Positions 16,106 to 31,183 of a stretch of DNA of 64,000 bases are shown here, one piece after another. The notes below the pieces were generated by a model that worked only from the letters and a program-made list of their open reading frames with translations, was not told where the DNA came from and made no database searches. The position numbers and the translations under genes are program-made. Each line of letters starts with the position of its first letter. Position 1 is the stretch's first letter. Source of the stretch: Desulforamulus reducens MI-1 (GTDB taxonomy: Bacteria; Bacillota; Desulfotomaculia; Desulfotomaculales; Desulfotomaculaceae); contig NC_009253.1 in assembly GCF_000016165.1 (NCBI RefSeq), positions 1,398,332 to 1,462,331 of the forward strand, written 5' to 3'.

Positions 16106-17056
16106 ATGAAAGTATTGGTTTTTGGACTGGGTGCCTTAGGAACTGTTTATTCTTGCCTACTTAAAAAACAGGGACATATGGTTGTTGGTTTTGCTCGTAA
16201 TTCGAAGGCTGAACAAATTAGAAAAAACGGAATTAAAGTATGCGGTATCTGGGGAAAACACGAAACAAAGCTGGATTATGTGGTATCTGGAACGGAGGAC
16301 ATTCAGGATATTTCCTTTGACCTTATAATTGTTACAGTTAAGTCCTTTGCAACGGAGGATGTTGCCAGTCAACTTACTAAAATACTGTCGCCGGAGACCT
16401 ACGTATTCTTAGCCCAAAATGGTTATGGTAATTTTGAATCTGCAGCAAAATATATTCCGGAAGAAAGAATTATCCTGGGCAGAGTGATTTTTGGGGCAGA
16501 GACCATCAGCACAGGTGTATCAAAGGTTTCTGCAATTGCGGATGATGTTATCCTGGGTAACCCCAAAAATCTTATTGGCTTAGAAATATTAAATTATTTT
16601 GCTGGATTATTTAATAGCGCCGGTGTACCAACCAGAACTTCAACAGAAATAATGAAATACATATGGGATAAAATTATATATAATTCAGCATTAAATCCAT
16701 TGGGAGCCCTATTGGATGTTAGTTATGGAGAATTAACTTCGGTTGATCATGCAAGGGTATTGATCAACGGCATAGTGAAAGAAATATTCGCCGTGATTAA
16801 TGCCATGGGGCAGGAACCACTTACGCCTAGTTTTGATGATTACATTCAGTTTTTTTACGAAAAACTATTACCCCCCACAGGCTCGCACCATTCTTCGATG
16901 CTGCAGGATATAAGAAATGGCAGAAAGACAGAGATAGATTCCCTGAATGGTGCCATCGTACGGCTTGGGAGAGAATACGGTGTCAGCACACCCTATAATG
17001 AAATGGTTACGCTATTGTCTAAAGCACAGGAAAAATTGAGTTTATCGGATAAATAG
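16106..17056 (+). CDS. 2-dehydropantoate 2-reductase family protein
   Basis: A 316-residue ketopantoate reductase. The N-terminal Rossmann motif is GLGALGTVYSCLLKKQGH, followed by FDLIIVTVKSFATEDV and QNGYGN, the family's substrate/cofactor segments. The C-terminal helical domain has the catalytic-lysine region (YIWDKIIYNSALNPLGALL), DIRNGRKTEIDSLNGAIV and the substrate-binding serine/asparagine set. It reduces 2-dehydropantoate with NADPH in pantothenate synthesis, though many paralogues act on other 2-oxo acids, so I give no symbol. A monocistronic unit: AGGGGG ribosome binding site and its own terminator. Confidence 0.85.
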   Translation: MKVLVFGLGALGTVYSCLLKKQGHMVVGFARNSKAEQIRKNGIKVCGIWGKHETKLDYVVSGTEDIQDISFDLIIVTVKSFATEDVASQLTKILSPETYVFLAQNGYGNFESAAKYIPEERIILGRVIFGAETISTGVSKVSAIADDVILGNPKNLIGLEILNYFAGLFNSAGVPTRTSTEIMKYIWDKIIYNSALNPLGALLDVSYGELTSVDHARVLINGIVKEIFAVINAMGQEPLTPSFDDYIQFFYEKLLPPTGSHHSSMLQDIRNGRKTEIDSLNGAIVRLGREYGVSTPYNEMVTLLSKAQEKLSLSDK

Positions 17057-17083
17057 CCCTTTCTTTTTGCTGCTATTATGATC

Positions 17084-17152
17084 AAAAAGCCACTCGCCTC
17101 AGTAAAATGTCCTTTACAAAGGGTACATTTTACAAACGAGTGGCTTTTTTCT
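17084..17152 (+). terminator. long terminator after the ketopantoate reductase gene
   Basis: AAAAAGCCACTCG pairs with CGAGTGGCTTTTT, and inside it GTAAAATGT pairs with ACATTTTAC; the 3' arm ends in a T run. Confidence 0.85.
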
Positions 17153-17156
17153 TAAC

Positions 17157-17426
17157 TGAGCTTGTAGGACAAATTTAGGTGTATTTTAATTATGTTCGAC
17201 AAAATTCTTAAAATCCTCAAATTAAGGGTGGTAAAATACTATTGTCCTGAATCCATGAATTACCTATTTTGGTAACCCCATCCTTTAGTATCTTATGGAA
17301 AATTTTATATCGTTGTCTCGCTGTATAATACTGTAATTATTACCTTAACGGTTTTAAACCTAAATTTGGCAATAACAATCTAAGCACTTCTTTGAGCGCA
17401 AAAACTTTATTGTTTTGTGGATATTT
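17157..17426. other. flank of the IS1380 remnant, no gene
   Basis: AT-rich DNA between the terminator at 17152 and the transposase remnant. It probably includes the old left end of the element, but I could not identify a terminal repeat. Confidence 0.4.
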
Positions 17427-18090
17427 CTACCTTGCTAAACACACAAAGTATGCTTGTTTAAATGTTTCAAACCAAGGACTGTGCTTTCCAAATTGTAATT
17501 TCTTTTTTCTTGTATGTGACACTAATCGTGATGCTAACGTGATTAAATTCTGAATCACAGTCCTAATCCTGCGGCGTTCTGCCTGCTTACGTAGAGGTAC
17601 ATGCTGCATCCTGGTTGTGGATTGACCAATCATCCTTAACAGATTGTAGGCCACTATACCAAAATGTAACACCAGGTTGTTAGTATCAAATTTACCAGAG
17701 GGTAGTCTTTCTAAATCTAGGTCTGTCTTAAGTTCACTGTGAAACTGCTCGCTGGTGCCGTGTTCATGGTATAGTCTTTCGATTACATGCGGTGGATCTG
17801 GCAGCGATGTCCAATAGGTTTCTGCCTCCACCTGAGGTACCAGAAATATTTGACCATCTTTGCCAAAGGTTCTTTCTGTAATCTTGTAAACCACCCTGAT
17901 TTCTCTTTTGAGTTCCTTTTTGTATTTCATCATGGAACCATAGTAGACTTTTTTACCTTCACGTTCCTGGCAGTAAATATCTTTGTTGTTCTTTGCCAAT
18001 ATGCTTTCGGCAACAAATTTCGAAGTGTTCTTTTGGCAATGTTCACTTCCTTGGCGTAACTCAGTATTTACGCAATAACCTTCCTTTGCT
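17427..18090 (-). pseudogene. IS1380-family transposase remnant (C-terminal part)
   Basis: On the minus strand the frame can be read from about 18090 (AKEGYCVNTELRQGSEHCQK, a stretch typical of IS1380 transposases) to the stop at 17427; further upstream it meets stop codons and the N-terminal half is missing. The visible part includes the RLYHEHGTSEQFHSELK segment with the third catalytic acidic residue and NLLRMIGQ. The normal length is about 450 residues; about 220 are left. There is no internal start with a convincing ribosome binding site. It belongs to a different IS1380 subgroup from the intact element at 29358-31183. Confidence 0.85.
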
Positions 18091-18634
18091 AGATATGTCT
18101 ACCTACAAATTATGGAGAGAAACAGAAAATTACTTTACGGATTCAGGTATATTTCTTTCTAAAAAAATTTTTTAATGTAAGTTACCATGTCGATTTATAT
18201 GGCCGGCTGCCTGACAATCCTGTTTGAGATGGCAATAGTCACAAATTTGTTTTTATATTCGCTCTCAAATAGTTTTAAAGCGAAACTATTGTCCGGCGAA
18301 TGACATTTGTTGATTTCGCCAGCGAAAATAGTTTTGGCGTAATAATTACTTATTTTTTACATAGAAGCAAAAAAATATATCAACCTAGAAATTATTATTG
18401 ACGTTTAAACCCTTATCAAATAAGGATTTAGGCGAAATCCTTACAACCCAAATTAAGCTGAGAAAAGTAATAGCGAGATAAGTTTTGAATCACAGCGAAA
18501 TACAATAAAAAATGGACCTAAATCCAAAATATAAAATAATTTCGGGTTTAGCCCATAAATGCCGTGGTTTATTCTAACTATAGCCTATGATAAACTTAAC
18601 TAAAGTAAAAGCGTAATAACAAGGAGGTGGACCT
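18091..18634. other. long AT-rich leader region of the hdr locus with GCGAAA hairpins
   Basis: No reading frame with coding character. It has several small stem-loops: AATAGTTT/AAACTATT (18268-18290), TTTCGC-CA-GCGAAA (about 18314-18327) and AAGGATTT/AAATCCTT (18422-18442). The word GCGAAA or its complement recurs six times. The hdrC promoter must lie here but no clean -35/-10 pair stands out; GGAGGTGG precedes the GTG start of hdrC. Confidence 0.5.
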
Positions 18635-19201
18635 GTGTATATTATAACCGAAGCTGGTCCGAAGGCGCTAGACCTAAATTTCACAAATGAAATAAGTGAA
18701 CGAAGTGGTCAGGAAATTGAGACTTGTTTTCAGTGCCAAAAATGTGCCTCCGGTTGTCCTGTGGCTGAGTATGGAGAAATGAATACCAACCAGATACTTC
18801 GGATGATTCAATTTGGCTTAAAGGATGAAGTGCTAAAGAGCAAAGCAATCTGGTTATGTGTTGGATGTGAGACCTGCGGTGCCCGTTGTCCCAATGGGAT
18901 TCGTATAGCTGCTGTCATGGATACATTAAGGGAAATGGCCATAGAAGCGGGGATAGCTCCTTCTGAAAAAGATATTTATTTATTCCACCAGTGTTTCTTG
19001 GATTCCGTTCAGTCCCTTGGCAGAGTGCATGAGGGTAGCATGTTAATGAAGTATAAACTAAAGAGTGGGCACTTAATGGATGATGTGGGGGTAGGTATAA
19101 AATTGTTCCTTAAAGGCAAGCTGGCCTTGTTTCCACACAGTGTTTCCAGTAAACAAGAGGTTCGACATATATTTGACTGGGCCAAGAAACACGGACAATA
19201 G
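18635..19201 (+). CDS. hdrC: heterodisulfide reductase subunit C-like protein
   Basis: A 188-residue iron-sulfur protein starting at GTG after AAGGAGGTGG. It has two CxxCxxCxxxCP motifs, CFQCQKCASGCP (about residues 32-43) and CVGCETCGARCP (about 79-90), each binding a [4Fe-4S] cluster, as in HdrC. It passes electrons between the flavin subunit HdrA and the catalytic subunit HdrB. It is the first gene of the hdr locus; hdrB follows after 146 bases that contain a structured repeat. It is cytoplasmic, with no membrane segment, so this is the soluble HdrABC type rather than HdrDE or Qmo. Confidence 0.93.
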   Translation: MYIITEAGPKALDLNFTNEISERSGQEIETCFQCQKCASGCPVAEYGEMNTNQILRMIQFGLKDEVLKSKAIWLCVGCETCGARCPNGIRIAAVMDTLREMAIEAGIAPSEKDIYLFHQCFLDSVQSLGRVHEGSMLMKYKLKSGHLMDDVGVGIKLFLKGKLALFPHSVSSKQEVRHIFDWAKKHGQ

Positions 19202-19235
19202 GATACAGGTTTTGACATATTTGAGTATCTATGTA

Positions 19236-19332
19236 TAGGGCAAACTAACCTTCCGCCTGTTTACGCTCGGAGAGTGCTTGTACTCGTAGGGGCGCGTAAA
19301 AAACTTGGCGGAAGCCAAGTTTTTTAACGGAA
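19236..19332. repeat. structured repeat with a perfect hairpin between hdrC and hdrB
   Basis: Begins AGGGCAAACTAACC and ends in a perfect 12-base stem, AAAAAACTTGGC-GGAA-GCCAAGTTTTTT (19298-19325), which is terminator-like. CTTCCGCC near 19250 can also pair with GGCGGAAG at 19307-19314, giving two alternative folds. It shares its beginning and its AAGCCAAGTTTT end with the element at 13731-13880. Confidence 0.7.
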
Positions 19333-19347
19333 AGTAGGGGATAACAG

Positions 19348-20193
19348 ATGAAATTGGCATATTACCCGGGCTGTTCTCTGGAGGCCACGGCCAAGGAGTT
19401 TGACATTTCTGTACGGGCTGTCTGTCAAGGGTTGGATATTGAGTTGGTTGAAATACCCGATTGGACCTGTTGCGGTGCAACCTCCGCCCACGCCACCAAT
19501 CATAGCCTTTCAGTAGGTTTGCCTGCCCTAACAGTTAAGCAAATACAGGACATGGGAATGGATTGTGTAGTGCCCTGTTCTGCTTGTTTTAATCGGCTTA
19601 AGACAGCGGAATATTATATGATACATGATTCCTCAAAATGTGAAGAAATGGAAAAGTTATTGAATTTCAAATTTGACGGCAAACCTAGGGTCTATGACTT
19701 ATTAGCCTATATGGTAGAAAAAATTGGCTTAAAGACCATTACCCAAAAAGTTCAGAAACCTTTGAAAAACCTGAAGATTGCCTGCTATTATGGGTGTCTC
19801 TCTGTACGACCAGGGGAAATAACCGGCATTGACAATACTGAAAATCCTATGCAAATGGATAAGTTACTGAAAGCCCTTGGGGCAACAGTAATTCCCTGGT
19901 CCTATAAGGTTGAATGTTGCGGTGCAGGACATTCGGTAGCTAAGTCACAAATGGTAACAAATCTTTCTGGCAAAATTCTAGTAAAGGCTAGGGAGGCCGG
20001 AGCAGATGCGGTGGTCAATTCTTGTCCTCTCTGTCAGACAAACCTAGAAATGCGTCGTCCCCCAGGGGAAGACCTGCCGGTATTCTTCTTCACAGAGCTG
20101 ATGGGTATGGCCTTTGGTATTCCTGAGGCTAACAGTTGGTGCAGTAAGCACTTGGTAGATCCCAGCAAGCTAGTTGACAAAATGTTGGGGTAA
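19348..20193 (+). CDS. hdrB: heterodisulfide reductase subunit B-like protein
   Basis: 281 residues with two cysteine-rich CCG domains. The first spans YYPGCSLEATAKEF, WTCCGATSAH and CSACFNRLK; the second YYGCLSVRPG, VECCGAGHSV and NSCPLCQTNLE. In HdrB these hold two non-cubane [4Fe-4S] clusters that cleave disulfides. All ligand cysteines are present. In methanogens the substrate is CoM-S-S-CoB; in non-methanogens the partner is unknown, with DsrC trisulfide or another thiol proposed. It lies between hdrC and the HdrA fusion gene (27-base gap, GGAGG upstream of the latter). Confidence 0.93.
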   Translation: MKLAYYPGCSLEATAKEFDISVRAVCQGLDIELVEIPDWTCCGATSAHATNHSLSVGLPALTVKQIQDMGMDCVVPCSACFNRLKTAEYYMIHDSSKCEEMEKLLNFKFDGKPRVYDLLAYMVEKIGLKTITQKVQKPLKNLKIACYYGCLSVRPGEITGIDNTENPMQMDKLLKALGATVIPWSYKVECCGAGHSVAKSQMVTNLSGKILVKAREAGADAVVNSCPLCQTNLEMRRPPGEDLPVFFFTELMGMAFGIPEANSWCSKHLVDPSKLVDKMLG

Positions 20194-20220
20194 CTTCGTT
20201 AGGGATGGAGGTTTAAGTAC

Positions 20221-23200
20221 ATGGGCAACATCCAAACCGATAAAAAGATAACGGGTGCGGTTATGGTTGTGGGTGGCGGTATCTCCGGTATGCAGTCGTC
20301 CCTGGACCTGGCTGAGTCCGGCTTTAAGGTTTATCTAATCGATGAAAAGCCAGCCATTGGGGGTACAATGGCACGTCTTGATAAGACATTCCCCACAAAT
20401 GACTGTGCTATGTGTATTATGTCGCCCAAATTGGTGGATACAGGACGACATAAGAATATAGAAATTATTACTGGAGCGAAAATTAAGGACGTAGACGGAG
20501 AACCGGGTAATTTTAAGGTAAAGATACATCAGAAGGCCCGGTATATTGATATTGCCAAGTGTACCGGATGTGGTGACTGTGCAAGGGCATGTCCAGTTGA
20601 GTTGCCGAATGAGTTTAATGGAAACATAGATACCCGCAAGGCAACCTATAAATTATATGCTCAAGCAACACCCAATGCCTTTGCCATTGAAAAGAAAGGG
20701 GTTGCCCCCTGTAAAGCTGCCTGTCCTGCGGGGGTCAATGTTCAGGGCTATGTACAACTGGTCAAGTCTGGCAAGCCTGTGGATGCCTGGAAAATGATTT
20801 ATAAAGAAATGCCCTTCCCAGCCGTTCTAGGCAGAATTTGTGCACATCCCTGCCAAACTGCTTGCAATCGCGCGAAAATTGATGATGCTGTGCAAATTAA
20901 AAATTTAAAACGTTTTGCTGCAGATGTGGCCTATGCCAATCTGGACAAACTCCCCTTACCGGAAAAGGCGGAACAAAGGGAAGAAAAAGTTGCTGTCATC
21001 GGTGCTGGTCCGGCAGGTCTTTCCTGTGCCCATTTTCTTGCTCTAAAGGGCTATCAGGTTACGGTATTTGAGGCTTTACCGATTACTGGTGGAATGATGC
21101 GGGTGGGTATTCCAGAATATCGCTTACCAAAGAAATGGGTAGATTTAGAAGTAGATCTGGTTAAAAGATTGGGCGTAGAAATTAAACTAAATACTGCACT
21201 GGGTAAGGATATCACCATTGATGAGCTCTTTAAGCAGGGTTATAAATCCATCTTCTTGGGAGTTGGTGCCCAAAAGGGTCTGCAACTTAATGTTCCTGGC
21301 AGTGACTCAGACGGTGTATACACCGCTGTGGAAATGCTTCGTCAAGTGGGCTTGGGAGAAAAGGTCCGGGTAGGGAAAAAAGTAGCCATTATCGGTGGCG
21401 GGAACGTAGCCATGGATGCTGCCCGAGTATCCCGACGCCTGGGAGCGGAAGTACATGTACTCTGCCTGGAATCCGAGGGGCAGTTACCTGCAGACATAGA
21501 AGAAATCCACGAGGCAATTGAAGAGGGGATCTCCTTCCACTATGCCCAGAGTGTTCAAAAAATCAAAAATAAGAATGGTAAGGTAAGTGGTTTGGTTACG
21601 GCCAATGTAACCAGCCTTTTTGATACAGAAGGACGTTTTGCTCCCCAGTGCGGCGATAAAGTTATTCACTGGGATGGTTTTGATGGTGTAGTTATTGCCA
21701 TTGGTCAAACAGCAGATTTGTCCTTTGCCGGTGACAAACCACTGGTCAATGAACGGGGGAATCGACTGGTGGCCGATCCAGATACACTGGCTACCCAGGT
21801 AGAGGGTGTATTTGCCGGTGGGGATGCATTTACAGGTCCCCGGCTGTTAATTGATGCAGTTGGCGCAGGAAAACGAGCAGCCGAAAGTATTCATCGTTAC
21901 ATACAAGGAGAAGATTTGAAAGCTGGCCGTGCCTTTAAGATACCCCAGGAGGAAATCTCTCCCCTGCGCCAAAAACCAAACGAAATACCTGTGGAGACAG
22001 CTTTAGCCCAAGGTTATGCAGCGGCAGATGTTAGGGCCAGTAACTTTGAAGAGGTAGCTTTAGGTTATAACGAAGAGCAGGCCAAAGCCGAGGCGGAACG
22101 ATGCTTGAACTGTGCTGTTTGCTCTGAATGTATGCAGTGTGTGGAAGCCTGCTTGCCTAAGGCCATTAATCACGATATGCAAGACCAGGAGTTGGAGATT
22201 GAAGTTGGCGCTTTGGTGTTGAATCCCGGCTTTAAACCCTACGATCCCACTGATTTAAGATTATATGGTTATGGGAAATATCCCAATGTTGTAACCAGCA
22301 TCCAATTTGAACGGATATTATCAGCCAGTGGACCCTTTGCTGGCCACATGGTTCGTCCATCAGATCATAAGGAACCCACAAAGATTGCCTGGATCCAGTG
22401 TGTGGGGTCCCGTAACGAAAGAATTGGCAATGGTTTTTGTTCATCTGTATGCTGTATGTATGCTATTAAGCAGGCAATGATAGCGAAGGAACACAGCCAT
22501 GATCCCCTGGATACAACTCTATTTTATATGGATATGCGTACGCCGGGTAAAGATTTTGAACGTTATCAGAACCGGGCCAAAGAAGAACATGGCATTAATT
22601 TTGTACGTTCCCGTATCTACGAAATCAGTCCTGCCAATGATGAAAGTGACGATTTAATCATTCGCTATGCCGATGAAGATGGATCTATTCACTATGAAAC
22701 CTTTGATATGGTGGTTCTTTCCATTGGTCTGGCTCCTCCGGCAGGTGCTAAAGACCTGGGGCATGCCGCGAAACTCGAACTTGATCAATATGGCTTTTGT
22801 CGAAGCAAGGAGTTTACTCCAGGATGTAGTTCTCGACCAGGTATCTTTGTAAGTGGAGCCTTTGGTGAGCCAAAGGATATACCGGAAACCGTTGTGGACG
22901 CCAGTGCAGCTGCGGCCATGGCCTCCCGTCTGCTGGCCCCAGCCCGGGGAACCCTAACTACTAAACAAGAGTTTCCACCTGAAAAGGATGTAGTAAATAA
23001 AGCTCCGAGGGTTGGTGTATTTGTTTGTAATTGCGGCATCAACATTGGTGCGGTGGTAAAAGTTTCTGAAGTGGCGGAGTTTGCCAAAACATTACCAGGG
23101 GTTGTGCATACGGAAGAATTCCTCTTTACCTGCTCGGCAGATAACATTATCAAAATAAAAGAACGAATTGGTGAGCATGATCTGAACAGAGTTGTTGTGG

Positions 23201-24666
23201 CCTCCTGCACCCCAAGAACCCACGCTCCCTTGTTCCAAAGCAGTATGAAAGAGGCCGGCCTCAATCCCTATTTGTATGAGCACGCTAATATTCGGGAGCA
23301 ATCCTCCTGGGTACACAGAGATCGTCCGCAGGATGCTACGGAAAAAGCCAAAGATTTAGTTAAAATGGCTGTGGCTAAGGTACGTTTACTAAAGCCAGTG
23401 CAAACTGCGTTTATCGATGTAAACCAGCGTACCTTGGTAGTTGGTGGCGGTGTGGCTGGTATGACCAATGCTCTTTCATTGGCTGAACAGGGTTATCCAG
23501 TTACGCTGGTTGAGAAAACCGATGTTCTTGGTGGACATGCCAGGGAATTGCGTTACAGCCTAACAGGCGAAGATATTCCAGCTTTTATTGCTAAGCTAAA
23601 GTCTGATGTAGAAGCAAACTTGTTAATTAACATTGAACTAAATGCTGAGGTGGATGAAGTCAGTGGTTATCTGGGGAACTATGTGACCACCCTGTTGAAG
23701 AACGATGGTACTAGGATAGAGGTCAAACATGGTGCTGTCATAGTGGCCACCGGTGCAGATGCCATGGCACCCACGGAGTACCTCTATGGAAGCAGTCCCG
23801 CTGTGCTAACGCAAACGAAATTGGAACAAAAATTGGCAGAGACGGGTCTAGGCGAAGCCAAAACCGTTGTAATGATCAACTGTGTAGGATCTAGGGAGCC
23901 AGAAAGGCCTTACTGCAGTAGAGTTTGTTGTACCCATGCCATTAAGAATGCCCTGAAGATAAAAGAGATCAATCCAGATGCAAACGTTATTATCCTCTAC
24001 AGGGATATTCGTACCTATGGCTTTAAAGAAGAGTTTTATACCGAGGCCAGACGCAAAGGAGTCATCTTTATCCGCTATAACGTAGACGATAAACCAGAGG
24101 TTAGGGCCAGCGGTGATAAGGTTCTTGTGACGGTAACGGATCATGTCCTGCAACAAAAAATCAAAATAGAAGCAGATATTTTGGCCCTTGCCAATGGTAT
24201 TCAGCCCCGCCCGGACATCGATCGTTTGAGCCAACTGTTTAAGGTACCCCTGAATGCTGACGGGTTCTATCTAGAAGCGCACATGAAACTTAGACCGGTG
24301 GACTTTGCAGCAGATGGCTTATATCTGTGCGGTACGGCCCATGGACCCAAGAATATTAACGAAACAATTTCTCAGGCCAATGCAGCCTCCATTCGTGCGG
24401 TAACCCTGCTATCGAAGGGGCGCCTGGAATCTTTAGGCATCACCGCTGAAGTGGATACAGAACTTTGTAAAGGTTGCGGCATATGTGTGAGTGCCTGTGT
24501 TTACGGTGCAAGGGTACTGGATGAGAGAAAGGGGATTGCTCTGGTACGGGAAGTTCTCTGTCAGGGCTGCGGGGCCTGCGTGGCAGCCTGCCCCAGCGGT
24601 GCTACCCAGCAGAAGGGCTTTGAAAAACAACAGCTGCTGGCCATGATGGATGCGGCTCTGGGATAG
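20221..24666 (+). CDS. hdrA: HdrA with inserted GltD/NfnB-like NAD(P)H module (1481 aa)
   Basis: Domains in order: an HdrA Rossmann FAD motif (VVGGGISGMQSSLDLAESG, about 16-34), the NDCAMC cluster site (about 60-64), a ferredoxin motif CTGCGDCARACP (about 115), then an insertion from about 160 to 640. The insertion reads like the GltD / NfnB flavoprotein: CKAACPAGVNVQGYVQL, a second FAD motif VAVIGAGPAGLSCAHF (about 257), an NAD(P)H Rossmann VAIIGGGNVAMDAARVSRRL (about 387) and GGDAFTGPRLLIDAVGAG (about 532). HdrA then resumes with CSECMQCVEACLPKAI, FVCNCGINIGAVV (930), ASCTPRTHAPLF (993), a third flavin motif VVGGGVAGMTNALSL (1072) and a C-terminal double [4Fe-4S] ferredoxin (1415-1465). The next gene encodes the same protein without the insertion. 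It is probably the bifurcating flavin subunit, able to use NAD(P)H directly. Confidence 0.93.
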   Translation: MGNIQTDKKITGAVMVVGGGISGMQSSLDLAESGFKVYLIDEKPAIGGTMARLDKTFPTNDCAMCIMSPKLVDTGRHKNIEIITGAKIKDVDGEPGNFKVKIHQKARYIDIAKCTGCGDCARACPVELPNEFNGNIDTRKATYKLYAQATPNAFAIEKKGVAPCKAACPAGVNVQGYVQLVKSGKPVDAWKMIYKEMPFPAVLGRICAHPCQTACNRAKIDDAVQIKNLKRFAADVAYANLDKLPLPEKAEQREEKVAVIGAGPAGLSCAHFLALKGYQVTVFEALPITGGMMRVGIPEYRLPKKWVDLEVDLVKRLGVEIKLNTALGKDITIDELFKQGYKSIFLGVGAQKGLQLNVPGSDSDGVYTAVEMLRQVGLGEKVRVGKKVAIIGGGNVAMDAARVSRRLGAEVHVLCLESEGQLPADIEEIHEAIEEGISFHYAQSVQKIKNKNGKVSGLVTANVTSLFDTEGRFAPQCGDKVIHWDGFDGVVIAIGQTADLSFAGDKPLVNERGNRLVADPDTLATQVEGVFAGGDAFTGPRLLIDAVGAGKRAAESIHRYIQGEDLKAGRAFKIPQEEISPLRQKPNEIPVETALAQGYAAADVRASNFEEVALGYNEEQAKAEAERCLNCAVCSECMQCVEACLPKAINHDMQDQELEIEVGALVLNPGFKPYDPTDLRLYGYGKYPNVVTSIQFERILSASGPFAGHMVRPSDHKEPTKIAWIQCVGSRNERIGNGFCSSVCCMYAIKQAMIAKEHSHDPLDTTLFYMDMRTPGKDFERYQNRAKEEHGINFVRSRIYEISPANDESDDLIIRYADEDGSIHYETFDMVVLSIGLAPPAGAKDLGHAAKLELDQYGFCRSKEFTPGCSSRPGIFVSGAFGEPKDIPETVVDASAAAAMASRLLAPARGTLTTKQEFPPEKDVVNKAPRVGVFVCNCGINIGAVVKVSEVAEFAKTLPGVVHTEEFLFTCSADNIIKIKERIGEHDLNRVVVASCTPRTHAPLFQSSMKEAGLNPYLYEHANIREQSSWVHRDRPQDATEKAKDLVKMAVAKVRLLKPVQTAFIDVNQRTLVVGGGVAGMTNALSLAEQGYPVTLVEKTDVLGGHARELRYSLTGEDIPAFIAKLKSDVEANLLINIELNAEVDEVSGYLGNYVTTLLKNDGTRIEVKHGAVIVATGADAMAPTEYLYGSSPAVLTQTKLEQKLAETGLGEAKTVVMINCVGSREPERPYCSRVCCTHAIKNALKIKEINPDANVIILYRDIRTYGFKEEFYTEARRKGVIFIRYNVDDKPEVRASGDKVLVTVTDHVLQQKIKIEADILALANGIQPRPDIDRLSQLFKVPLNADGFYLEAHMKLRPVDFAADGLYLCGTAHGPKNINETISQANAASIRAVTLLSKGRLESLGITAEVDTELCKGCGICVSACVYGARVLDERKGIALVREVLCQGCGACVAACPSGATQQKGFEKQQLLAMMDAALG

Positions 24667-24682
24667 GGAGGGTGGAAAACCT

Positions 24683-27600
24683 ATGACGGATCAAAAATAT
24701 TTCGGTTCAGTACTGGTTGTGGGGGGCGGCATCTCCGGGATGCAGTCCGCCCTGGACCTGGCCGAATCCGGTTACCGGGTTTATCTAGTTGAAAAAAAAC
24801 CTGCCATTGGTGGAACCATGGCAAGACTGGATAAAACCTTTCCAACAAACGACTGTGCCATGTGTACCATGTCTCCTAAACTGGTAGATGTAGGTCGGCA
24901 CCTGAATATTGAGATTATCACTGGGGCGGAACTGATAGGCCTGGAAGGAGAAGCCGGTAATTTTAAGGCAAAGGTATTGCAGCAGGCCCGCTGTGTGGAT
25001 ATTAGCAAGTGTATCGGTTGTGGGGCCTGTGCGGAAGTGTGTCCTGTTAAAGTACAGGATGATTTTGATGCAGGTTTGGGTCAACGCAAGGCCATTTACA
25101 AACTGTATGCCCAGGCCACACCAAACGCCTTTGCGGTGGATAAAACGAAGTGCCTAAAAATTAAGAACCCCAAGGCCTGCGGCAAATGTGCCAAAGAGTG
25201 CCCTGCCGGAGCCATCGATCATGCAATGGCGGACACCACGCTGGAACTGGAAGTGGGAGCGGTCATTCTGAGTCCCGGCTTTGAACCCATGGATGGAGAT
25301 TTGCGAGGGGAGTTTGGCTGGGGCATTTACCAAAATGTTGTCACCAGTTTACAATTTGAGCGCCTGCTATCAGCCAGTGGACCCACCATGGGTCATTTGG
25401 TTCGCCCCTCGGATCATGTAGAACCCAAAAGGATTGCCTTTTTACAGTGCGTGGGTTCTAGGGATAAGGCCAAGGGAAATCCCTATTGTTCGGCTGTCTG
25501 CTGTATGTATGCTACCAAGCATGCCATCATTGCCCAGGAACATGAGGCCGGACTGGAAACTAAAATTTTCTACATGGATATTCGGGCCTATGGGAAAGAC
25601 TTTGAAAAATATTACGACCGGGCCAGAATTCAGCACGGAGTTAAATATGAGAAGGCCATGATTTCCTCTGTTAAAGAGGACCCGCAAACCAAAAATATTA
25701 TTGTGAAATACCGGAATCCCGATGGCTCATTCAATGAAGAACAATTTGATATGTTGGTGCTCTCTGTTGGCCTAAAGCCTTCGGCAGGAAACCAGAAGTT
25801 AGCAGAAGCTTGCCAAATCCAATTGGATGATTTTGGATTCTGTAAAACCGTAGAATTTAGCCCTGGGTTAACAACAAGGGAAGGTGTGTTTGCCGGCGGT
25901 GCCTTTTGTGCACCAAAGGATATCCCCGAGACTGTGGTGGATGCCAGTGCAGCCGCTGCCAATGCCTCCCGTTTGTTGAGTCAAGTTCGGGGGAGTTTAA
26001 GTAAAAAGAAAGAATACCCGCCAGAGCGTGATGTAACTAGCGAAGATCCCCGAGTGGGTGTGTTTGTCTGCAACTGCGGAATTAATATCGGCAGTGTGGT
26101 TCGGGTGCCGGAAGTGGCTGAATTTGCTAAAACCATTCCCAATGTCGTACATTCCGAAGAATTTCTATTTAGCTGCTCCCAGGATAGCATTGAAAAAATT
26201 AAGGAACGGATTAAGGAACATCAATTAAACCGGGTGGTGGTGGCCTCCTGTACACCCAGAACCCACGCACCGTTATTTATGAGCAGTTTAAAGGAAGCAG
26301 GAATCAACCCTTACCTTTTTGAACAGGCCAATATCCGGGAACACTCCTCCTGGGTACACCGGGATAACCCCGCTGCAGCCACTGAAAAGGCCAAGGATTT
26401 GGTAAAGATGGCAGTGGCCAAGGTTAAATTGTTGAAACCCGTCTATACCTCCTTTATGGATATCAACCGTAAGGCTTTGGTTATCGGTGGGGGAGTGGCT
26501 GGTATGGCCAACGCCCTTAACTTAGCTGGCCAGGGATTCCAGGTTATTTTAGTTGAACGGACTGACAAATTAGGTGGCCATGCCCTGGACGGCAGGTATA
26601 CCATGAAGGGTAACAATCCAGCAGAACTGGCGGCTAAGCTTGCCGGGGAGGTTCAGATTCACCCTAACATTGATTTAAATCTAAACTCCACCATTAAAAA
26701 AGTGGCCGGTTATTTGGGAAATTACAAAACAACCCTGACTACACCAGCGGGTGAAAGAGACGTGGAACACGGTGTGGTTATCATTGCCACCGGTGCCGAT
26801 CAGGCAACAACTTCAGAATATTTGTATGGCCAACATGAAGCAGTATGTACCCAAAGGGAATTGGAGCACAAACTGGACGGTTCCGGGATTGGCGGTGCCA
26901 AAACAGTTGTTATGATTCAGTGTGTTGGCTCCAGGGATGAAAACCGACCCTACTGCAGTAGGATATGCTGTTATAATGCCATCAAGAATGCTCTAAAAAT
27001 GAAAGAACTTGACCCAACCGTTAATATCTTCATTATATACCGAGATATCCGGACCTATGGCTTCTACGAGACCTACTATGCTGAAGCAAGGCGCAAGGGA
27101 GTTGTATTTATCCGCTATACCTTGGATAACAAACCTAGGGTAGAACCCAGAAGTAATGGGTTAAAGGTTCATGTTAAAGATCCAATTTTAAATAAAATAC
27201 TGGAACTGGATACCGATTTGCTTGTTTTAAGTACTGGCATAGAACCGGCAAAGGGAACAGACACCCTGAGCCAGTTGTTCAAGGTATCTCTTAACGCAGA
27301 TGGTTTCTTCTCCGAAGCACACATGAAGCTGCGCCCGATAGATTTTGCTGCGGATGGTCTATACCTCTGTGGTCTGGCCCACTCGCCCAAATTGATAGAC
27401 GAGTCCATTGCCCAGGCCAATGCTGCCGCTGTACGCGCAGTTACCATGTTATCGAAGGACAAGTTGGAATCCTTAGGCAATGTTGCCATGGTAAATCCCA
27501 AGTGGTGTAAGGGGTGCGGCTTATGTATTGAGGCCTGCTCCTATGGGGCCCGGGTAATGAATGAAATGACCCATGTTGCCGAGGTATTAGATGTGCTGTG

Positions 27601-27706
27601 TCAGGGTTGTGGAGCCTGTGTGGCAGCATGTCCCAGCGGGGCTTGTCAGCAAAAGGGCTTTGAGAAACAACAAATCATAGCTATGTTGGATGCCAGTAAC
27701 AGCTAG
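24683..27706 (+). CDS. hdrA: HdrA-like flavoprotein, double-module form (1007 aa)
   Basis: Start ATG 24683 follows AGGGAGGGTGG; an in-frame ATG at 24650 lies inside the preceding gene and has no ribosome binding site. Modules: FAD motif VVGGGISGMQSALDLAESG (about 13-31), NDCAMC (about 57-62), ferredoxin CIGCGACAEVCP (about 111), CGKCAKECPAG (about 167), the CNCGINIG and ASCTPRTHAPLF segments (463, 522), a second flavin motif VIGGGVAGMANALNLAGQG (about 598) and a C-terminal pair of [4Fe-4S] motifs (943, 973). It lines up almost from end to end with the upstream HdrA minus its insertion, so the two arose by tandem duplication. It gives HdrBC and MvhD a flavin partner. Confidence 0.93.
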   Translation: MTDQKYFGSVLVVGGGISGMQSALDLAESGYRVYLVEKKPAIGGTMARLDKTFPTNDCAMCTMSPKLVDVGRHLNIEIITGAELIGLEGEAGNFKAKVLQQARCVDISKCIGCGACAEVCPVKVQDDFDAGLGQRKAIYKLYAQATPNAFAVDKTKCLKIKNPKACGKCAKECPAGAIDHAMADTTLELEVGAVILSPGFEPMDGDLRGEFGWGIYQNVVTSLQFERLLSASGPTMGHLVRPSDHVEPKRIAFLQCVGSRDKAKGNPYCSAVCCMYATKHAIIAQEHEAGLETKIFYMDIRAYGKDFEKYYDRARIQHGVKYEKAMISSVKEDPQTKNIIVKYRNPDGSFNEEQFDMLVLSVGLKPSAGNQKLAEACQIQLDDFGFCKTVEFSPGLTTREGVFAGGAFCAPKDIPETVVDASAAAANASRLLSQVRGSLSKKKEYPPERDVTSEDPRVGVFVCNCGINIGSVVRVPEVAEFAKTIPNVVHSEEFLFSCSQDSIEKIKERIKEHQLNRVVVASCTPRTHAPLFMSSLKEAGINPYLFEQANIREHSSWVHRDNPAAATEKAKDLVKMAVAKVKLLKPVYTSFMDINRKALVIGGGVAGMANALNLAGQGFQVILVERTDKLGGHALDGRYTMKGNNPAELAAKLAGEVQIHPNIDLNLNSTIKKVAGYLGNYKTTLTTPAGERDVEHGVVIIATGADQATTSEYLYGQHEAVCTQRELEHKLDGSGIGGAKTVVMIQCVGSRDENRPYCSRICCYNAIKNALKMKELDPTVNIFIIYRDIRTYGFYETYYAEARRKGVVFIRYTLDNKPRVEPRSNGLKVHVKDPILNKILELDTDLLVLSTGIEPAKGTDTLSQLFKVSLNADGFFSEAHMKLRPIDFAADGLYLCGLAHSPKLIDESIAQANAAAVRAVTMLSKDKLESLGNVAMVNPKWCKGCGLCIEACSYGARVMNEMTHVAEVLDVLCQGCGACVAACPSGACQQKGFEKQQIIAMLDASNS

Positions 27707-27727
27707 GCTGAAAAGGAGGGTTATGGA

Positions 27728-28180
27728 ATGAGTGTTCCAGAAGAAAAAGTTCAAAACAACAGTGAATATGAACCCAAAATTATCGCCATACTCTGTAACT
27801 GGTGTTCCTACACCGGTGCAGATTTGGCTGGTACAGCCCGGATTCAATATCCCCCGAATGTACGCATTATTCGGGTCATGTGCAGTGGCTCAGTGGACCC
27901 ACTTTATATGATTAAACCTATCCTAGACGGCGGCGATGCCGTCCTGGTGGGTGGCTGACACGAAGGTGACTGCCACTATGGTAGTGGCAATTATAAAGCC
28001 CGTCGTAAGGTAGCCATTGCTAGAAATGTACTCCAACAATTAGGTATACCGGAAGAGCGGTTATGGTTACGTTTCATCAGTGCTTCCCAGGGGGCATACT
28101 TTGGTGAAGTCATCAGCGAAATGACCGAGAAATTGAAAAAGTTAGGACCTAACCCGCTGCGCAAGAACTGGGAAATCTAA
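27728..28180 (+). CDS. mvhD: MvhD-type electron-transfer protein, predicted selenoprotein (Sec77)
   Basis: The frame runs from ATG 27728 (after AAAAGGAGGG) through an in-frame TGA at 27956-27958 to TAA at 28178-28180, giving 150 residues. Before the TGA come the cluster cysteines C23, C26 and C52 (ILCNWCSYTGADLAG, VMCSG); after it, HEGDCHYGSGNYKARRK and ISASQGAYF, exactly the MvhD family C-terminal half. The TGA falls where the family has the Cys of GGCHxGDCHY, so it is read as selenocysteine. A hairpin TGCCAC-TATGGTA-GTGGCA starts 13 bases downstream. MvhD carries electrons through a [2Fe-2S] cluster between a hydrogenase or other donor and HdrA. Selenium versions are known in methanogens (VhuD). 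Truncation is very unlikely given the perfect homology beyond the codon. Confidence 0.9.
27971..27989 (+). promoter_or_regulatory. SECIS-like hairpin of mvhD
   Basis: TGCCAC and GTGGCA form a six-base stem, extendable past one mismatch, around the seven-base loop TATGGTA. The loop, which holds G and U residues as bacterial SECIS loops do, lies 19-25 bases after the TGA, inside the usual distance for SelB recruitment. It is within the coding sequence, as expected in bacteria. Confidence 0.7.
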
Positions 28181-28198
28181 GGTGGGAGGCGTAATAGC

Positions 28199-29311
28199 AT
28201 GAAAACATATACGATAAAATCAGGGGACACCCTGAGTGCAGCCCGGGGTTTTTTAAAAGCGTTAATTACATCGGGAAAAGTAAGCTCCATTTTGGTGCCG
28301 CAGGAAGTTTTGTCGAAAACCAATGTGGTTCCTACATTAATAAAGGATCCTGCAATGTTCGATGCGGCAAATCCCTTTGCCCCTGTAAACGGCCTTAATG
28401 CCGCCAGGCTGGTGGCAAATCTTTCCCGCAATCTGCCGGAGAAGATTGCCGTGGTGCTTCGTTCCTGTGAAGTGCGTGCTTTGATTGAGTTGGTTAAGCT
28501 TCAGCAGGCTAAATTAGACAACTTAGTTATCATTGGTGTGGATTGTGTGGGAACATTTCCTGCCAGTGACTATGCAAATATGGTTAAAGAAAACAAAATT
28601 GATGCAAGTAAATGGGTAACCCAGGCCGCCGACGGTAATAACCCCATTGGCGTGCCATTGCGCCGGGCCTGCACCGTGTGTGCGTATCCCGAGGTTGGTA
28701 ATGCAGACATTGTCTTGGGCTGGTTGGGGATGGGCGGTAATTTGCTTATCTCTGCCAAAGATGACGTGGATCTAGCTGATATAGCTGGTTTAGATAGTAT
28801 ATCCGTACCGGATACTCGGATAAAATTATTAGAAAAAATTATCACAGAAAAGGCACAAGCCAAGACCAAGGCCATAGATGAGTTCAAGAGTTCTGTTAGC
28901 AGCATGGAAAAGCTGGCAGAAGTATTGGCAACCTGTATAAAATGCCAGAATTGTCGCCAGGCCTGCCCCATTTGCTTCTGTCGAGAGTGTGTATCAGCGG
29001 GTCCCATTTTTGATCACAATGGGGATAAATATCTGGAATATGCCAAGAGAAAGGGAGCCATAGAGTTACCCACCGATACCACACTATTCCATCTAACCAG
29101 AGTGAATCATATGGGGCTGTCCTGCGTGGGCTGTGGTCAATGTGAAAATGCCTGCCCCATGAATATTCCCGTGGGATTAATGTTCCAAGCGTTGTCTCAA
29201 CCCAATCAGGATCGTTTTGAGTATGAGCCAGGACGTTCATTGGAGGAGCCCATTCCTTTAACCGTTTATAAAGAACATGAACTTGAAGAATTAAATACCG
29301 GTAAACACTGA
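28199..29311 (+). CDS. FrhB/FdhB-like iron-sulfur flavoprotein of the hdr locus
   Basis: 370 residues, start ATG after GGTGGGAGG, 18 bases beyond mvhD. The N-terminal half (AVVLRSCEVRALIELVKL, LVIIGVDCVGTFP) matches the coenzyme F420 hydrogenase/dehydrogenase beta-subunit family. The C-terminal half has iron-sulfur motifs CIKCQNCRQACPICFCREC (about 244-262) and CVGCGQCENACP (about 306-317). Such subunits deliver electrons from formate dehydrogenase, F420 or another donor to HdrA/MvhD. No formate dehydrogenase or hydrogenase gene adjoins, so the donor is unknown. It ends the operon at a good terminator. Confidence 0.85.
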   Translation: MKTYTIKSGDTLSAARGFLKALITSGKVSSILVPQEVLSKTNVVPTLIKDPAMFDAANPFAPVNGLNAARLVANLSRNLPEKIAVVLRSCEVRALIELVKLQQAKLDNLVIIGVDCVGTFPASDYANMVKENKIDASKWVTQAADGNNPIGVPLRRACTVCAYPEVGNADIVLGWLGMGGNLLISAKDDVDLADIAGLDSISVPDTRIKLLEKIITEKAQAKTKAIDEFKSSVSSMEKLAEVLATCIKCQNCRQACPICFCRECVSAGPIFDHNGDKYLEYAKRKGAIELPTDTTLFHLTRVNHMGLSCVGCGQCENACPMNIPVGLMFQALSQPNQDRFEYEPGRSLEEPIPLTVYKEHELEELNTGKH

Positions 29312-29315
29312 TACA

Positions 29316-29347
29316 AAAAGGGAGTTATCCAGTGGGTAACTCCTTTT
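29316..29347 (+). terminator. terminator of the hdr operon
   Basis: AAAAGGGAGTTATCC pairs with GGTAACTCCTTTT around a short loop, directly after the FrhB/FdhB-like gene. Confidence 0.85.
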
Positions 29348-29357
29348 ATCTTCAAAT

Positions 29358-31183
29358 CGGAAAGTAACTTTCCGAGCCAAGTTAAAGCTCCAAAATAACC
29401 AATTTTTGGTTATACCGCTTGAGCTGCTATGTTGCCTGAATGCCTAATCACTCGGAAAGCGTTATCACTGCTGTATACTCCAATAAAAAGCTAGATTTTA
29501 GGGTGCAGTTAATAAGACCCATCTTTTTTGGATCAGTGATATCATATTTGATTAATTCGATTAGTCTCGAGTTTGTTTAACCTGAACTTACGGCAACCCA
29601 TGCCTGTATGCAAAGGAATTCTTGTAATTTTTCCTTAGCATTCTTCAATGCCTTTTGCAGCCAGGGATTAGGGGCTAACTTTATATGGCGGTAACGGTTG
29701 TTGCCTACAATGTTCCCAGGTACATTCAGTATTTTACGGCGGATAGTGGGCACTTCAGCACGGCTGTCTTTGCCATCCAATAAGGCCAAGCGAAACCAGT
29801 TGAGAAGGTTATACGATAATACTTTGAGCCACATAAAGGCTTTGTTTCGATCCATCTCTGCTTGGCTCATTTTTTCAAAGCCTAAGCCAACCTTGAGTTC
29901 ATCAATTTTGTTTTCGATATTGCAACGCTTATTGTATTCGTGCCATACCTCCTCTGGGTTGTGCTCGTCACTAGAAGTAATTATCACCTGGTAGTCGAAT
30001 GTCTTCAGGTCAAAGTTAAGTTGATCGCCGCATGCCTTAGGTTCTTGAGTTTCACGGATAAATACAAACCTGCGGGCTTTGGACCATTTAGGTAATGGAA
30101 TGGTGATTTCTGCTGCAGCATAATGGTTGCTCAAAGACTGCCACTGGTTCTGGTCATCAAGGTATTTAATGACCTTTCTCATATTACTGGTGAGTTTAGC
30201 CTTACAAATATACTCGATGCCCTGTTCTTCCAGGTAGGCAAAGTTATCCTCATCAAAGAAACCTTTATCTATGCGGATACCTTTTACGAGGATATTCTGG
30301 GCAGCTAAGATCTCTAATGTCTCTTTAAGGAATTCCATAAATTGGCCATTGCTGGCGACGTTCCCACTATATAACCCGGCATTGACTAGTTCGCAAGTTC
30401 CAGAGATAAATGCTACCTTTACCTTGTAGGAAGGCCTCCCGTGGTACCGAGGATTGTAACCGACTTTTGATCCTTCCTGTTTCCCAAAAACAGTGAGGAC
30501 ACTGTCATCAATATCTAGCCAGACTTCACGGGGCTGATCGGATTTGGCCTTTAAGGACAGCATTTCCTGATTCACCAGAGGCAATTGGTTTAATGCCTCC
30601 TGCTCACAGATAAGAGATAGAAAGTTCCGCAAAGTGCTTTCGTCAGGCACTTGTGTTACTTCTTTAATTTTCTGGTATCCAGGGTCAGTTTGCAGAGCAT
30701 TCATATGAGAAAACCGTAATAATCCCAAGGAAAGGGCATCAATGATTGTATCTAACAACCCTGTATCAGAGTATTTACAGTTATGATGTCGCTTAAGGGA
30801 AACCCCTTTAAGCATACCCTTGAAATCAATGGCTTGCTTAAACGCCTCTAGTATGCCAAAATTTCCATAAGCAGTTACAGAAGTATTGTCAAAGCTAATC
30901 GGAAGATCACTTTTGCTAGTCAGGCGTTGAAGAGAATGTAATTTCTTCTGATATTTACGTTCCAAATCACGTCGTTGTTGACGGGTCAAAGTTTCAAGTT
31001 GATTTGTGGTAATAAATTGTGATACCATCATTTCAGAGGGTCACCATCCTTTTGGAATGTTTTGTTTGGACGCTAAACAATTCCGTAGAAGGGGCGGTGT
31101 ACCCTCTTTTTCTGTCAAATTTTTTACAACAAAAAATGGTTATTAGACCTTGATGTTATTGGGTTTTTAAACTTTACTTTCCG
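29358..31183 (-). mobile_element. IS1380-family insertion sequence, intact
   Basis: About 1.8 kb bounded by inverted repeats CGGAAAGTAA (29358-29367) and its complement TTACTTTCCG (31174-31183), holding one full-length transposase gene on the minus strand. The length suits IS1380 elements. I saw no clear target duplication, so the exact ends may differ by a few bases. It sits just after the hdr operon terminator. Confidence 0.75.
29577..31031 (-). CDS. IS1380-family transposase
   Basis: A full-length 484-residue DDE transposase. EVWLDIDDSVLTVFGKQEG contains the first catalytic Asp of the family, followed by GYNPRYHGRPSYKVKVAF, the typical IS1380 stretch. The second Asp is in GIRIDKGFFDEDNFAYLE, and the third acidic residue is near YNKRCNIENKIDELK. 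No frameshift or internal stop, so it could be active. The ATG start choice is uncertain by one codon (two adjacent Met). Confidence 0.9.
   Translation of the reverse strand: MMVSQFITTNQLETLTRQQRRDLERKYQKKLHSLQRLTSKSDLPISFDNTSVTAYGNFGILEAFKQAIDFKGMLKGVSLKRHHNCKYSDTGLLDTIIDALSLGLLRFSHMNALQTDPGYQKIKEVTQVPDESTLRNFLSLICEQEALNQLPLVNQEMLSLKAKSDQPREVWLDIDDSVLTVFGKQEGSKVGYNPRYHGRPSYKVKVAFISGTCELVNAGLYSGNVASNGQFMEFLKETLEILAAQNILVKGIRIDKGFFDEDNFAYLEEQGIEYICKAKLTSNMRKVIKYLDDQNQWQSLSNHYAAAEITIPLPKWSKARRFVFIRETQEPKACGDQLNFDLKTFDYQVIITSSDEHNPEEVWHEYNKRCNIENKIDELKVGLGFEKMSQAEMDRNKAFMWLKVLSYNLLNWFRLALLDGKDSRAEVPTIRRKILNVPGNIVGNNRYRHIKLAPNPWLQKALKNAKEKLQEFLCIQAWVAVSSG

Follow-up and report, generated by a model that had tools for sequence, protein, structure and literature searches.

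We analysed a stretch of 64,000 nucleotides (the window) from the closed genome, 3,608,104 bases in size, of Desulforamulus reducens MI-1 (contig NC_009253.1, positions 1,398,332 to 1,462,331). The subject of this report is an open reading frame (ORF) of the window, located at 20221-24666 on the forward (+) strand, which is open throughout and encodes a protein of 1481 amino acids (aa). Its product belongs to the HdrL proteins, i.e., HdrA chains interrupted by a GltD-like domain with binding sites for flavin adenine dinucleotide (FAD) and nicotinamide adenine dinucleotide (phosphate) (NAD(P)). The gene is very probably Dred_1327, which has already been described (PMC4759654). We distinguished the following parts:

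20221..24666 (+), HdrL, a double HdrA with a GltD-type insert, 1481 aa (Dred_1327); alignment, families and model
20248..20697 (+), first HdrA half, N-terminal part, residues 10-159, with a FAD motif, C62/C65 and the first cluster C114-C124; matches 5odc 142-291
20698..22119 (+), GltD/StnC-type NAD(P)H dehydrogenase insert, residues 160-633; PDB matches and fold
20908..20910 (+), Lys230, at the place of StnC K170 and NfnB E117, predicted fourth cluster ligand; alignment
21370..21720 (+), NAD(P)-binding subdomain, residues 384-500, putative exchanged cassette; trees and identities
21463..21471 (+), CLE, residues 415-417, where YRR would stand; points to NADH
22024..22113 (+), NFEEV...RCLNC tail, residues 602-631, permuted relative to NfnB; PDB alignment
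22120..22938 (+), remainder of the first HdrA half, residues 634-906, with C634-C644, E697 and K750; matches 5odc 293-566
23002..24663 (+), second HdrA half, residues 928-1481, with an HdrA N-domain, a flavin domain lacking the inserted ferredoxin, and a C-terminal ferredoxin domain (C1416-C1457)

When the PDB was searched by phmmer, Methanothermococcus HdrA (5odc) aligned in two blocks, its positions 142-291 with residues 10-159 and its positions 293-566 with residues 634-906. As both flanks follow HdrA up to 291 and again from 293, residues 160-633 (474 aa) represent an insertion at a single point. This point falls inside the inserted ferredoxin domain of HdrA, directly before C634, the first cysteine of the second of its two clusters (C114, C117, C120, C124 and C634, C637, C640, C644), which is the placement that characterizes type III HdrA. 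Yet type III proteins carry their insert on a type I (single) HdrA, whereas the chain studied here holds two HdrA halves. A preliminary description of the locus, made from the DNA letters, had taken the scaffold for one HdrA, and the phmmer alignment corrects it on this point. The same description had set an insert between two iron-sulfur motifs at residues 160-640, which proved accurate to within a few residues, and rightly credited it with FAD and NAD(P)H Rossmann motifs of its own. We locate the FAD motif at 259-268 (VIGAGPAGLS) and the second Rossmann motif at 390-399 (IIGGGNVAMD), and the insert has cysteines of its own as well. Its observation that the adjacent paralogue is uninterrupted also holds: the ORF ending at 27706 has the same two HdrA halves and lacks the insert. 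In all, the 1481-aa chain has FAD-type motifs at three places (18-25, 259-268 and 1075-1083) and a single NAD(P) site, and the idea that NAD(P)H oxidation and HdrABC-type chemistry would be combined in a single chain with three flavins is consistent with the sequence, the structural model and the literature.

The structure prediction proposed at the outset was carried out with AlphaFold for residues 1-925 (mean predicted local distance difference test, pLDDT, 82.4; predicted template modelling score, pTM, 0.59) and recovered the folds of both the insert and HdrA. Model residues 157-643 superposed on the four best StnC-type rows with Z-scores of 45-49 over 474-476 residues, and residues 4-908 on HdrA 5odc with a Z-score of 39.0 over 407 residues. 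Some HdrA match was present in all 60 genomes that we searched (D. reducens included), and the suggested search for HdrA-GltD fusions returned near-full-length HdrL matches, 47-82% identical, in at least 29 of the 59 other genomes, including those of the isolates D. putei and D. aeronauticus. The alternative that the fusion is a sequencing or assembly chimera can practically be dismissed, since it is countered both by this distribution and by the detection of the matching protein (Dred_1327) by mass spectrometry (PMC4759654); nothing was found in its favour. Residue conservation was counted among 65 HdrL rows hand-picked from search results, composed of a set of 50, from which duplicates between two collections (L010, L011, L013, L027) and rows truncated at contig ends or by stops were excluded, and 15 of 20 further stretches (L148, L151, L152 and L153 being repeats and L156 having no HdrL). 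Across these 65 relatives, 35 cysteine positions are invariably Cys.

Sequence and fold agree on the affiliation of the insert. Its matches to StnC/NfnABC and NfnB chains of the PDB span E-values from 8e-104 to 8e-79, with the StnC/NfnABC chains (9bov, 9n5u, 8oh5) ranked ahead of NfnB (4ylf, 5jca), and it scores 532.8 bits against NCBIfam PRK12771 (cut-off 516). The segment NFEEVALGY...RCLNC, N-terminal in NfnB (4ylf 14-43), is C-terminal in the insert as well as in 9bov and 8oh5, i.e., the two types are circularly permuted. The fourth ligand of the flavin-adjacent cluster is reported as Glu117 in NfnB (PMC7596348) and as Lys170 in StnC (PMC10482914). At this place the D. reducens protein has Lys230 instead of the NfnB glutamate, and the HdrL rows have lysine in 62 cases out of 65, histidine in two and arginine in one. 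Together with the position of the NFEEV...RCLxC tail after the NAD domain, the lysine assigns the insert to the StnC type. StnC is described as passing on electrons from NADPH with no bifurcation at its FAD (PMC10482914), so the simplest view of the insert is that of an input module; by this analogy its GltD flavin is probably an input flavin and not a second bifurcation site.

We also considered that the insert could be a true NfnB-like second bifurcation site using NADPH, in which case the chain would bifurcate twice, as suggested for the HdrA9-11 proteins of ANME-1. The insert does have the NfnB fold, with Z-scores of 37-38 over 396-403 residues against the best NfnI/NfnB rows (5jfc, 5vj7, 5jca) and 36.4 over 403 against 4ylf, and R301, at the place of NfnB R201, is kept in 65/65 rows. 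However, the Z-scores of the StnC-type chains are higher, the ligand, the permuted tail and the CLE motif are not those of NfnB, and the arginine is present in StnC too, which does not bifurcate there (PMC10482914). On the evidence of ligand, tail and fold we judge this alternative improbable.

As for the cofactor, the YRR motif typical of NADPH-using NfnB is replaced in the D. reducens HdrL by CLE (415-417). DsrL belongs to the same superfamily, and measurements on purified DsrL enzymes tie YRR to strict dependence on NADP(H) and the loss of YRR to use of NAD(H) (PMC7596348). Four genomes of one genus (L139, L140, L146, L154) encode a 1487-aa HdrL with E696, K750, E1204 and K1246, which are exactly the residues given for HdrA of M. 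thermoacetica (PMC9430772), and all four have CLE. Since the motif is common to these Moorella-like rows and to the protein of the window, and the Moorella HdrA of like architecture oxidises NADH (PMC9430772, PMC13040438), we predict that the D. reducens HdrL uses NADH and not NADPH. A different guide, in which GXGXXG marks NAD (PMC12054007), speaks against this, as the GGGNVA of the protein would make it an NADP enzyme. We set this rule aside because the final residue of the motif is independent of the RR/LE split: it is G in one of the 65 rows (L098) and A in the others, in RR and LE rows alike.

The HdrA part of the chain retains the Glu/Lys pair considered to be the mark of bifurcating HdrA flavins (PMC9430772) in both halves, E697/K750 in the first and E1202/K1242 in the second. 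In the first half the pair is nearly invariant (E697 in 65/65 rows, K750 in 64/65), as opposed to 43/65 and 49/65 rows for E1202 and K1242, which makes the first half, where the GltD module is plugged in, the stricter bifurcation candidate. C65, the counterpart of HdrA Cys197, is confined to the first half and the HdrA N-domain to the second; by virtue of this split the chain can complete its own cluster, an argument also made for fused archaeal HdrA (PMC9012536). Selenocysteine, a feature of some but not all HdrL, is absent from the window protein, where C65 is a cysteine. In 10 of the 50 rows (L037, L040, L044, L047, L048, L059, L063, L098, L100, L106), a TGA stands at the C65 place, was read as U and is a probable selenocysteine.

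The hdrL gene lies in an operon with the following neighbours:

18635..19201 (+), HdrC-like protein, 188 aa (Dred_1325, by operon order); NCBIfam HdrC 4e-22, 78.8 bits (cut-off 160), and Fer4_8/Fer4_17
19348..20193 (+), HdrB-like protein with CCG domains, 281 aa (Dred_1326); Pfam CCG 7e-20, NCBIfam HdrB 150.1 bits (cut-off 345)
24683..27706 (+), double HdrA lacking the insert, 1007 aa (Dred_1328); a further in-frame start at 24650
27728..28180 (+), MvhD/FlpD with an in-frame TGA at 27956-27958 (Dred_1329); Pfam FlpD
28199..29311 (+), iron-sulfur protein, 370 aa (Dred_1330, annotated as formate dehydrogenase; FlxB is a label of this analysis); 4Fe-4S families

The proximity of mvhD is typical for hdrL. 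When the TGA is read through, the FlpD family matches at 27707-28177 with 1.1e-48, spanning positions 1-123 of 123, and the TGA takes the place of a family cysteine. As the family match crosses the TGA and selB is present in the genome (above its cut-off), MvhD is a probable selenoprotein. No Rfam family reached its gathering score in 17000-30000, no selenocysteine insertion sequence (SECIS) element was recognised for MvhD, and the stretch after the TGA folds no better than shuffled sequences (z -1.26; 21 of 200 as good). The 370-aa iron-sulfur protein scores 22.6 bits for FrhB_FdhB_C, just below the cut-off of 23.3. No FlxA ORF is encoded between 18635 and 29311, and Dred_1325-30 are likewise reported without FlxA (PMC4759654). 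The operon ends with the iron-sulfur protein gene and not with metV and metF as in Moorella. Directly after it lies an IS1380 transposase gene (29577-31031, - strand; 345 bits, cut-off 180), and ahead of it an ORF at 17427-17999 (- strand) which, by eye only, resembles a piece of a transposase. Elsewhere in the genome a GltD-like gene (3225571-3226755; L182) has a TAA inside.

Taken together, we consider it likely that this HdrL-type HdrA is the flavin core of a cytoplasmic, bifurcating Hdr complex which is fed from NADH by its built-in GltD module. The complex would consist of HdrC, HdrB, HdrL, HdrA, MvhD and the iron-sulfur protein. NADH would reduce the GltD FAD, and electrons would cross two GltD clusters, which by analogy with NfnB are formed by C168, C207, C211 and K230 near the flavin and by C164, C215, C628 and C631 further out. 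Next in line would be the two clusters that HdrA holds in its inserted ferredoxin domain (C114-C124, C634-C644), followed by the FAD of the first HdrA half with its Glu/Lys pair. From there, one branch would lead through HdrCB to a disulfide acceptor, with the trisulfide of DsrC in sulfite reduction as the probable candidate, while the second, low-potential branch would lead to ferredoxin, probably via the ferredoxin domain that is uninterrupted in the adjacent HdrA.

Several points weigh against this proposal. In the model, pLDDT falls below 50 at residues 48-65, 128-143, 147-156 and 641-646, i.e., at the junction and the cluster loops, so the position of the insert relative to HdrA is not reliable. 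The partnership with DsrC rests on analogy with FlxABCD-HdrABC, and Dred_1325 does not rise in comparison with Fe(III)-oxide (log2 0.06; PMC4759654). Moreover, a GltD module has been suggested to block ferredoxin docking (PMC12054007). Should the insert close the ferredoxin site, the enzyme would be a plain NADH:disulfide reductase passing electrons from NADH to HdrCB with no bifurcation, in line with the published passages on the Moorella enzyme, where no ferredoxin reduction was found. We regard this as unlikely in view of the almost strict conservation of the first Glu/Lys pair and the uninterrupted double HdrA that adjoins HdrL in the operon. Rather unlikely, too, is that the complex runs in reverse in the cell, confurcating ferredoxin and dithiol electrons to NADH: HdrA systems are reversible in principle and reverse directions have been proposed for relatives (PMC12054007, PMC12142623), but the operon is raised under sulfate reduction, where sulfite reduction needs electrons (PMC4759654).

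HdrL is not confined to Desulforamulus. A contig scan gave at least 79 loci, and full HdrL among the scanned loci came from Desulforamulus, other Peptococcaceae, Thermodesulfobacteriota, Calditrichota, Symbiobacterium, and planctomycete and Thermoplasmata metagenome-assembled genomes. Of 99 loci, 57 hold HdrL (two of them, L150 and L151, in one genome), and an MvhD homologue is found nearby in 52 of the 57; four of the remaining five lie on contigs of 5.6-8.6 kb. Some HdrL copies have internal stops, namely one TGA and two TAA in G007 (L022) and one TAG in a G045 copy (L017).

The comparison of relatives also bears on the history of the module. A tree built on the HdrA part of 58 rows, without the insert itself, shows nine changes between insert-bearing and insert-free forms (at least seven when judged by starred branches), and the uninterrupted HdrA of the window (Dred_1328) nests among HdrL of its order. 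In a tree with 16 GltD modules from outside HdrA (fusions with NuoF, NuoG/StnC, dihydroorotate dehydrogenase and HdrD-like parts, and others, ten of the sequences judged by reading), a single clade of the 28 HdrL inserts was rejected by the approximately unbiased (AU) test (p-AU 0.00073). In one frame of 854 aa (L169), a GltD module is fused to iron-sulfur parts and to others that were taken, by reading, for CCG (HdrD-like) ones.

A second layer of exchange may concern the NAD(P)-binding subdomain. Of the 65 rows, 34 have RR as their cofactor motif and 31 have LE, with no other state, although these are no natural frequencies as the rows were hand-picked. The RR/LE label changes 10 times on the tree of the HdrA part, six times on that of the insert minus the NAD subdomain, and only twice on that of the NAD subdomain itself (motif omitted). 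To control for length, label changes were also counted on 14 further blocks of 104-106 columns, which overlap in part and gave 5-13 changes (5-8 in four insert blocks, 9-13 in ten HdrA-part blocks). Within Desulforamulus, the LE subdomains of D. putei (L030) and its relative G004 (L012) match other LE rows at 79-81%, and that of D. putei matches RR at 53%, while most of the remaining protein is in both cases nearer to RR rows. The AU test rejected a clade of the six Desulforamulus LE rows for the sequence outside the subdomain (p-AU 0.003), and for the subdomain itself it rejected placing D. putei and G004 with RR (p-AU 0.023). RR and LE HdrL occur within 15 kb of each other in three genomes of this genus (L029, L043, G008). 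In L029, L043 and L150/L151, the LE copy of a close RR/LE pair is followed by an HdrA-like protein of 784-785 aa with one flavin domain.

On balance, we lean towards a history of nested cassettes, in which GltD was gained, lost or exchanged several times at one point of HdrA, and the NAD(P) subdomain (about 120-160 residues) was swapped between backbones, each swap switching between NADH (LE) and NADPH (RR). On this reading, D. putei and G004 would hold an LE subdomain on a backbone that is placed among RR proteins. Searches in open-access PMC yielded no report of an exchange of this HdrL subdomain. Here, too, there are objections, chiefly that subdomain residues may have converged, that the trees are quick ones and that the rows were hand-picked. 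Joint adaptation of residues to NADH or NADPH could imitate common descent even though the motif region (412-424) was omitted. The trees of the HdrA part, of the inserts with outside GltD modules, of the label changes and of the control blocks were quick ones, and all of these but the insert tree were built without a mixture model; the subdomain alignment has about 106 columns, in which long branches meet, and the groups for the AU tests were named after the first tree had been seen. Outside the subdomain, a clade of the five Desulforamulus RR rows was not rejected (p-AU 0.064), so one import of an RR subdomain may suffice in this genus, with no need of a swap back. A donor of that subdomain was not found, the nearest row outside the five being an LE row with 60% identity.

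How NADH oxidation is joined to the reduction of ferredoxin and disulfides is a central question of anaerobic energy conservation in sulfate reducers and acetogens, and the HdrL of the window would represent a one-chain case of such coupling. The sharp RR/LE split provides a direct cofactor prediction for each HdrL, testable in close paralogue pairs of one genus. If the cassette exchange is true, the electron donor of a bifurcating complex would be switchable by one subdomain, which would be useful for annotation and enzyme design.

The preliminary description had presented the protein as a notable fusion. The fusion architecture stands, but its novelty does not, as HdrA with a GltD insert is a known kind of protein already in print. 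HdrL was named in 2009 in Desulfobacterium autotrophicum as a heterodisulfide reductase/glutamate synthase fusion (PMC2702500). Compared by description only, the proteins of that species share with the window an NADH site and an adjoining mvhD, but two of the three are selenoproteins, unlike the window HdrL. GltD insertions have also been described for ANME-1 HdrA9-11 (PMC9012536) and type III HdrA (PMC12054007), both of which, again by description, have a single-HdrA scaffold in contrast to the double HdrA found here. StnC of the Stn transhydrogenase (8oh5, 9bov) is the best fold match of the insert and shares its lysine ligand and permuted tail; yet StnC is attached to a NuoG-like body with StnAB and has NADPH (YRR) as its cofactor (PMC10482914), whereas the insert lies inside HdrA and has CLE.

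Closer in architecture is HdrA of the Moorella MetVF-HdrABC-MvhD complex (1487 aa), in which a thioredoxin reductase (TrxR)-like domain is likewise interrupted by GltD and followed by a second TrxR half, with three FAD and one NAD(P)H site (PMC9430772). The HdrL of the window is about 47% identical to the Moorella-like rows. The Moorella operon includes metV and metF but lacks a second HdrA (PMC9430772), whereas that of the window has HdrA and the iron-sulfur protein and no adjoining metVF. In L139, hdrC, hdrB, hdrL, mvhD, metV and metF follow in succession, and metVF are found in L141 as well. The FlxABCD-HdrABC system resembles the operon of the window in combining HdrABC with an MvhD/FlxD-like and another iron-sulfur protein, but in the window FlxA is missing and the NADH module is inside HdrA (PMC4759654).

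The closest counterpart is Dred_1325-30 of D. reducens MI-1 itself (reported as Desulfotomaculum), with the same six genes in the same order (HdrC, HdrB, HdrL, HdrA, MvhD, iron-sulfur protein) and the same proposed function; the six proteins rise on sulfate in its proteome (PMC4759654). Dred_1327 was described as far exceeding the HdrA of Desulfovibrio in size and as combining multiple partial HdrA domains with putative NADH-binding ones; the proposal of 2016 was that it oxidises NADH, that Dred_1328 reduces ferredoxin and that DsrC is reduced (PMC4759654). That text gives neither an insertion point nor a cofactor choice or a comparison with StnC, all of which are provided here for the window protein. 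To an architecture that was already known, our analysis thus adds the StnC-like character of the insert, the prediction of NADH as cofactor and a putative history of the RR/LE subdomain.

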